Positions 13,856 through 15,325 of a stretch of 44,213 bases of DNA are shown here, piece after piece (the first letter of the stretch is position 1; the number at the start of each line of letters is the position of its first letter). A model generated the notes under the pieces. That model was not told where the DNA came from. It made no database searches and saw only the letters and a list, made by a program, of their open reading frames with translations. Source of the DNA: Armatimonadota bacterium (GTDB lineage Bacteria; Armatimonadota; UBA5829); assembly GCA_026392045.1 (NCBI GenBank), contig JAPLCU010000007.1, positions 1 through 44,213 of the forward strand, written 5' to 3'. The translations under genes and the position numbers were made by a program.

Positions 13856-14233
13856 TTAAGCTGCTGCTTGCCTAAGCCAAAATTCCGCAAACGGCATCAC
13901 ATCCACCGTATCATCGGTAAAATCAGGGCTCCGCCGGACATCGGCTTCTTTTACAGGCACTACCAAAAGTTCCATGTGCATATCCAGATACATGCCCTCC
14001 ACCGGAATCAGGGCGGTCCTGCCTGAGTTATGAGTGGTAACGGCCGCGAACACTATCTGCCCCGTCATCGCATCCGCCAACAAATCGCTAATCCGCCCAA
14101 ACTCGACGCCGTCTATATCTGATACCGTCCACCCCATCGCATCGGGCTGTCCTTCAGAAAGTTGATATTTAACGCGGCTCAGTCTGACCAAGCCAGCCTC
14201 TTCCTCTTCGTAGAAATCAGGATGGTATTCCAT
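13856..14233 (-). CDS. PRC-barrel domain protein
   Basis: 125 residues. The core GWTVSDIDGVEFGRISDLL followed by AMTGQIVFAAV fits the first half of a PRC-barrel. The second half would be TALIPVEGMYLD with LLVVPVKEADV. PRC barrels occur in photosynthetic reaction-centre subunits, in RimM and in many small bacterial proteins of unknown use; nothing here points to a specific one. The acidic N-terminus (YEEEEAG) is outside the domain. GAGGGCGAGG lies a few bases before the ATG. Convergent with copA. Confidence 0.8.
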   Translation of the reverse strand: MEYHPDFYEEEEAGLVRLSRVKYQLSEGQPDAMGWTVSDIDGVEFGRISDLLADAMTGQIVFAAVTTHNSGRTALIPVEGMYLDMHMELLVVPVKEADVRRSPDFTDDTVDVMPFAEFWLRQAAA

Positions 14234-14388: not shown

Positions 14389-14435
14389 GCGGGTTACAAA
14401 CCCGCAAAGAGGGATCGGGGATTACAAATCCCCGA
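14389..14435. repeat. two tandem ACA-triloop hairpins
   Basis: GCGGGTT-ACA-AACCCGC (14389-14405) and TCGGGGATT-ACA-AATCCCCGA (14415-14435) share the TTACAAA centre but have different stems. The rest of 14234-14516 contains nothing else that I recognise. Confidence 0.75.
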
Positions 14436-14516
14436 CCATCAGTATTTTGTTTCCGATGTTTGCGAAATCTAGAGAAGCCGCATTGAAAACACAATGTTAA
14501 TCCAACACGCCACAGT

Positions 14517-14739
14517 TGGCAACCAACAACTCGATGAGTGCACAACATCTCTGAAAAGAGTAGTTTTGTGCTCAAATTTACTTAATATTAGTAAATATGG
14601 GATACAAAATGGCTGCAAAAATACAGCTGGCAACCAACAACTCGATGAGTGCACAACCATCTCTGAAAAGAGTAGTTTTGTGCTCAAATTTACTTAATAT
14701 TAGTAAATATGGGATACAAAATGGCTGCAAAAATACAGC
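14517..14739. repeat. 111/112-bp tandem repeat (unit A, two copies)
   Basis: Copies at 14517-14627 and 14628-14739 are nearly identical; the second has one extra C. Each starts TGGCAACCAACAACTCG and ends with the hairpin ATGGCTG-CAAAAATA-CAGC. Read on the minus strand, the copies together encode a type IV prepilin-like signal (see next entries). Confidence 0.9.
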
Positions 14740-14820
14740 CATAATATTTATTTTGAGCTCAGAATCAGCATATAAGCCATTGAATCCCTTGTCTATAAAT
14801 GGCTGCAAAAATACAGCCAT
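14578..14820 (-). pseudogene. remnant of a type IV prepilin-like N-terminus within tandem repeats
   Basis: An 80-codon minus-strand frame ends at 14578. Its last 25 residues begin CALIELLVASCIFAAIL and finish YPIFTNIK, preceded by arginine, aspartate and glycine. This matches the class III signal of type IV pilins and pseudopilins: glycine before the cleavage site, glutamate at +5, then a hydrophobic helix. It is close to the LIELLV...AAILFPVF pattern of many Armatimonadota and Planctomycetota pilin-like proteins. The frame stops right after the helix, so no pilin body is encoded. In the other copy of unit A the frame is broken by a one-base deletion and diverges. The upstream residues are encoded by repeat B and look meaningless. 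Probably a decayed, repeatedly duplicated gene start. Confidence 0.6.
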
Positions 14821-14858
14821 AATATTTTTTTGAGCTCAGAATCAGCATATAAGCCATT
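14721..14858. repeat. 60/61-bp direct repeat (unit B, two copies)
   Basis: Copies at 14721-14781 and 14799-14858 begin with ATGGCTGCAAAAATACAGCC and end AAGCCATT, with 17 bases between. They overlap the end of unit A through the shared ATGGCTG hairpin, so A and B form a cascade of duplications. 14859-14982 is A+T rich with no gene seen. Confidence 0.9.
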
Positions 14859-15163: not shown

Positions 15164-15325
15164 ATGAATGGTCCTGACGTTGCGACAATTCTAAAAATCT
15201 CTGCGATCATTGCTATTTTGGCGAATTTGCCAAAAGCGATTGCAACACTCCGCCGCGCATACCGTTGGATCAGTCGATTGACATGCAACACGTTACAGCG
15301 GTTGATTCAGCTAATAGACAGCTGA
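15164..15325 (+). CDS. 53-residue cationic, probably membrane-active small protein
   Basis: A small gene with an ideal ribosome-binding site: GAAGGAGG ends about 7 bases before the ATG. It reads MNGPDVATILKISAIIAIL, then ANLPKAIATLRRAYRWISRL, and ends in a short amphipathic tail. The first half is a hydrophobic helix and the second is arginine-rich. That architecture occurs in small membrane proteins, including type I toxin peptides; this is only an analogy. It has a long leader and a strong downstream hairpin (15446-15487). No homologue comes to mind. Confidence that it is translated rests on the ribosome-binding site and the lack of any competing gene. Confidence 0.6.
   Translation: MNGPDVATILKISAIIAILANLPKAIATLRRAYRWISRLTCNTLQRLIQLIDS

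Follow-up and report, generated by a model that had tools for sequence, protein, structure and literature searches.

Decayed prepilin gene starts as the likely source of a tandem-repeat block in an Armatimonadota genome

Gene content and repeat architecture of the locus

The window analyzed in this study is a single stretch of 44,213 nucleotides and corresponds to the entire contig C32 of an Armatimonadota assembly (3.55 Mb in 206 contigs). TypA encoded in the window shares 66-80% identity with those of Armatimonadota and related genomes, and the next groups are found near 52%. The repeat block lies between a gene for a small PRC-barrel protein and a small open reading frame (Table 1), and the non-coding DNA around it is AT-rich (~34-40% GC vs. 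roughly 50-60% in the surrounding genes). The PRC-barrel protein was found to match partially the model of the photosynthetic reaction centre H subunit (E 2.4e-7, far under the cut-off). The right neighbor (15164-15325, plus strand) is an orphan frame of 53 amino acids (MNGPDVATILKISAIIAILANLPKAIATLRRAYRWISRL...) with a strong AGGAGG site, preceded by a leader of slightly more stable folding than shuffled sequence (z -2.2); neither a Pfam/NCBIfam match nor a relative in 20 related genomes was detected for this frame. Two REP-like palindromes, GCGGGTTACAAACCCGC and TCGGGGATTACAAATCCCCGA, occupy positions 14389-14435, immediately left of the plus-strand remnant listed in Table 1, and, with 2 mismatches allowed, the genome contains 15 occurrences of their core GGGGATTACAAATCCCC and none of the reversed control. 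Elsewhere in the window, there are a 7-bp GGTTATA array of 7.6 copies (955-1007) and, close by, a perfect 35-bp tandem repeat of 2.1 copies (1036-1108).

Table 1. Positions of the repeat units, prepilin-related pieces and neighboring genes. Coordinates are those of the window, except for the last line.
Feature	Position	Strand	Remarks
PRC-barrel gene	13856-14233	minus	left neighbor of the block
Prepilin remnant, SILFPMFAKSREAALKTQC*SNTPQLAT	14441-14524	plus	in-frame stop; truncated where the repeats begin
Repeat A1	14517-14627 (111 bp)	minus
LIELLV piece, outer A copy	14518-14546	minus	model R1 (see text) 8.6 bits, E 0.059; 21 bases identical to 14631-14651
Chimeric prepilin start, GCALIELLVASC---IFAAILYPIFTN	14580-14664	minus	spans the A2/A1 junction (14627/14628); recovered by the DNA profile, R1, G009 DNA alignments and C99 protein alignment
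Repeat A2	14628-14739 (112 bp)	minus
Second prepilin piece, ATTATGGCTG-ta-TTTTTGCAGCC...	14691-14751	minus	across B1/A2; 2-bp frameshifting insertion relative to the C99 gene
Repeat B1	14719-14781 (~63 bp)	minus
Hairpin common to units A and B	14721-14742	none	also inside the intact C99 gene
Repeat B2	14797-14858 (~62 bp)	minus	includes a 26-column C99-like prepilin piece
Small open reading frame	starts at 15164	plus	right neighbor of the block
Intact prepilin gene	C99:4538-4663	minus	host genome

An earlier inspection made from the letters of the DNA (henceforth the sequence-only reading) described two A and two B repeats overlapping through one hairpin, and this architecture was reproduced here (111/112 bp for A and 62/63 bp for B). 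A1 and A2 are 98% alike and differ by one substitution and one 1-bp indel, while B1 and B2 differ by one 1-bp indel up to the point at which they diverge. The hairpin through which A and B overlap, ATGGCTGcaaaaataCAGCCAT, appears for a second time at 14799-14820. There are exactly two copies of A in this draft assembly, in which further repeat copies may be collapsed. The A pair bears CTGT at both outer edges, being consistent with a single tandem duplication. No second copy of the block was found elsewhere in the 3.55-Mb assembly, and BLAST recovered the block itself in none of 40 related genomes, which include no member of the same genus.

Prepilin-derived DNA in the block

We searched the window with a DNA profile built on the starts of 24 intact prepilin genes, 21 from the host genome and 3 from a relative of the same family (G009). 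The top three matches in the 44-kb window all fell in the block, namely the chimeric start (minus strand, 14664-14588; 24.4 bits, E 4.8e-7), the plus-strand remnant (14444-14509; 22.4 bits, E 2e-6), and the piece across B1/A2 (minus strand, 14745-14702; 10.9 bits, E 0.007). Among the controls, 200 dinucleotide-shuffled windows gave at most 11.7 bits, and 380 kb taken from other genomes gave at most 7.0 bits. R1, a sequence-only covariance model built on the same alignment, gave 29.0, 19.7, and 16.8-17.2 bits to the three pieces, respectively, and placed them at the 25th (chimeric start), 27th, and 28th ranks in the whole genome, directly under the intact genes. Two other weak profile matches in the genome, on contigs C28 and C93, were considered as prepilin pieces and rejected, as no prepilin start motif was seen on inspection. 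In addition, BLAST of the block against the 40 relatives yielded five matches, three of which fell on G009 prepilin starts in the matching frame.

The individual pieces were then related to intact genes as follows. The plus-strand remnant, which is absent from the sequence-only reading, was recovered by tblastn with intact prepilins (33 queries; best E 1.4e-5, uncorrected for their number). No recognizable 5' part was found upstream of it, and the similarity test of the DNA to its left was not significant. As this remnant abuts the minus-strand array, prepilin pieces meet here in opposite orientations. The piece across B1/A2 was aligned locally with the intact C99 gene over 57 columns with a score of 52, which was reached by none of 500 shuffles (mean 19). 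For the 5' part of unit A, which includes the codons for LIELLV, the closest match was a G009 gene, over 36 bases and at a level reached by none of 300 shuffles. The pilin similarity of the 5' part of unit B was not significant (the score was reached by 15 of 300 shuffles). Altogether, the DNA is significantly homologous to prepilin genes and carries disabling lesions, as pseudogene fragments do.

At the protein level, the signals are weak: the Pfam scan of the minus-strand frame described below gave no family at E<=1, and the best hit in the NCBIfam scan was the pseudopilin HpsC with an insignificant E of 0.23. DNA profiles can thus expose prepilin ancestry where protein profiles fail. The weak protein-level scores, together with the presence of the full signal only at the duplication junction (see below), would be expected if the resemblance to prepilins arose by pure chance in a hydrophobic, AT-rich frame made by tandem duplication. 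Nevertheless, the scores in the DNA profile analysis reached twice the best of the 200 shuffles, and three pieces, including the plus-strand remnant, are clustered within one 300-bp stretch. We therefore regard a chance origin as very unlikely.

The signal sequence across the A2/A1 junction

The minus-strand reading frame at 14578-14820, which is open for 80 codons, contains GCALIELLVASCIFAAILYPIFTNIK and terminates after TNIK. The sequence-only reading assigned to the minus strand of unit A a class III signal with Glu at +5, which the array was said to keep re-creating. The signal itself is genuine, but it occurs once: Gly -1 and Glu +5 followed by the hydrophobic stretch are found together at the A2/A1 junction, where the codons for LIELLV are supplied by A2 and those for IFAAILYPIF by A1, so that the signal is complete only across the junction. 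Owing to a 1-bp difference, the outer copy A1 has Cys in place of Gly -1 (TGT TGT GCA CTC ATC GAG). The LIELLV end of A1 translates as CCALIELLVANCGVLD* without Gly -1, and the outer reading, LIELLVANCGVLD-stop, continues in the frame as ANCGVLD-stop, departing from the pilin pattern after LIELLV. The phrase of repeated re-creation is therefore too strong.

The chimeric start resembles the N-terminal domain of Armatimonadota prepilins (PF07963) both in its start-region DNA and in the presence of Gly -1, of LIELLV including Glu +5, and of AAILxPxF. On the other hand, it is 3 codons short relative to intact prepilins, lacks a body, a nearby start codon and a Shine-Dalgarno sequence, and falls under Pfam detection. 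The absence of a pilin body, noted already in the sequence-only reading, was borne out by the stop after TNIK and by tblastn with full prepilins, which found no C-terminal pilin body on the minus strand. For 23 residues upstream of the cleavage site, there is no start codon. Of the in-frame candidates, the two nearest (TTG at -24, ATG at -28) have neither a Shine-Dalgarno sequence nor another ribosome-binding site. The 28 bases preceding Gly -1 and the G009 leader agree at 16 of 28 ungapped positions, a level reached by a fraction of 0.0008 of shuffles, and the start ATG of the G009 gene aligns with ACT in the block.

The host genome encodes 27 N_methyl (PF07963) prepilins over the Pfam cut-off, and the prepilin peptidase gene, for which the sequence-only reading had proposed a search, was found on contig C46. 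That reading also proposed a short peptide cut by prepilin peptidase. A minus-strand product of this kind, whether a class III signal peptide or a mini-pilin, would suit the 80-codon open frame and the arrangement of Gly -1, Glu +5, and the hydrophobic stretch. Nevertheless, most of the intact host prepilin genes have a start codon near the cleavage site, and many have a clear Shine-Dalgarno sequence, in contrast to the two distant start candidates in the block. The lack of a body, of a Pfam match, and of the block in the 40 related genomes also speaks against such a peptide. The peptidase has 27 real prepilin genes to serve, and its presence does not make the block a prepilin. We consider an expressed peptide highly improbable.

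The hairpin and the C99 prepilin gene

Among the intact prepilin genes of the host, that on contig C99, which reads GFTLAELLMVTCILAVFAAIMYP, shares with the block the pattern TATTxTGGCTG..TTTTTGCAGCCAT..TGTAxCCC as well as the hairpin, and the corresponding part of the C99 protein reads TCILAVFAAIMYP. The two differ in that the C99 gene is intact and continues for ~250 residues past the cleavage site, whereas the copy in the window is frameshifted and truncated. The intact gene forms the same hairpin with the codons for Ala-Val-Phe-Ala-Ala (-13.1 vs. -13.2 kcal/mol). Thus, the shared hairpin is prepilin coding sequence of the C99 type and needs no separate function, and we dropped it as a candidate functional element.

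Both strands of the array fold more stably than shuffled sequence (z -5.9 and -5.6), which could be taken as the mark of a structured RNA or DNA element, i.e., a hairpin repeat with a function of its own. Against this, the main hairpin occurs in an intact prepilin gene, Rfam gave nothing at the gathering threshold and only chance miRNA matches at a relaxed one, the host genome contains no further copies, and the 24-base pattern of unit A, the only pattern scanned, was not found in IMG/VR viral contigs. The probability of such an element is slight.

Comparison with silent pilin cassettes

The block could also be envisaged as a silent store from which an expressed prepilin gene receives sequence through gene conversion, in the manner of pilS and pilE in Neisseria. 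Gonococcal pilS copies carry variable pilin regions (PMC12871193), and pilE/pilS loci have also been described elsewhere (PMC4023411). The block is like pilS in being partial pilin sequence that is repeated and has no start of its own, and the 27 prepilin genes of the host would offer potential recipients for repeated, prepilin-derived DNA. However, pilS comprises the variable regions shared with the expressed pilE, while the minus-strand pieces in the block retain the conserved 5' (N-terminal) part alone and have no close expressed relative. With up to 3 mismatches allowed, the 21-mer encoding LIELLV was matched nowhere in the 3.55-Mb assembly except in the block itself, no recipient-like second copy exists in the assembly, and the pieces are frameshifted and mixed in orientation. 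A cassette store, which the sequence-only reading had raised, is thus extremely improbable. The same reading held that an absence of other copies in the genome, together with a lack of transcription, would favor simple decay, and as regards the copies this is the situation that we found.

Origin of the block

Within ~420 bp of AT-rich non-coding DNA, 5' coding pieces of prepilin genes lie in both orientations and are marred by a stop, a frameshift, and the loss of the body, with two overlapping tandem duplications overlying them. We consider it highly likely that the block comprises decayed prepilin gene starts that were rearranged and tandemly duplicated, that is, genomic debris. Such debris is ordinary and is not a working system; the prepilin reading is inherited ancestry, for which no selected function is required. 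One point against this interpretation is that the minus-strand frame remains open for 80 codons. The proposal of a decayed pilin gene in the sequence-only reading holds as to the decay but not as to a single gene, as we recognized at least two minus-strand starts and the downstream part of a plus-strand one.

On its minus strand, the ancestral locus may have carried a pair of neighboring, degenerate prepilin starts, of which one was C99-like (now across B1/A2) and the other contained LIELLV. An unequal crossover or a template switch between the two starts at nearly equivalent codons would have duplicated the intervening 112 bp and fused the 5' part of one start with the 3' part of the other. 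Since the breakpoints lie at nearly equivalent codons of the two pieces, an event of this kind would account at once for the doubled 112 bp and for a prepilin start that is back in register, although 3 codons short. The block itself shows the duplication and the homology, and from them we infer the crossover; this specific step appears to us evenly poised between right and wrong. The order of events is a reconstruction, as the relatives share typA but none of the neighboring genes tested, and we found no genome with the locus in an intact ancestral form.

Prepilin starts in Armatimonadota and wider implications

The block has little significance alone, but it exemplifies how genes decay and are tandemly duplicated in a prepilin-rich lineage. 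It also illustrates that a convincing signal peptide within repeats can descend from dead gene starts. The same DNA model detected 7 to 41 prepilin starts per genome in eight related genomes, suggesting that genomes of this lineage normally hold many similar starts, which leave much for recombination to act on. One may go further and suppose that the conserved prepilin starts are recombination hot spots in Armatimonadota, with the block being a caught intermediate, in which an unequal crossover between two adjacent starts had produced a chimeric in-frame signal. We regard this supposition as very unlikely. If it were true, such events could supply new prepilin genes to genomes that hold dozens of them, and frequent recombination between prepilin starts would bear on the origin of large prepilin repertoires.

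Apart from the block, two prepilin genes on another host contig (L059 and L060 on C181, at ~7.9 and 13.3 kb) possess near-identical starts and leaders and are separated by 5.4 kb, and their likeness is a sign of a recent prepilin gene duplication in the host genome.
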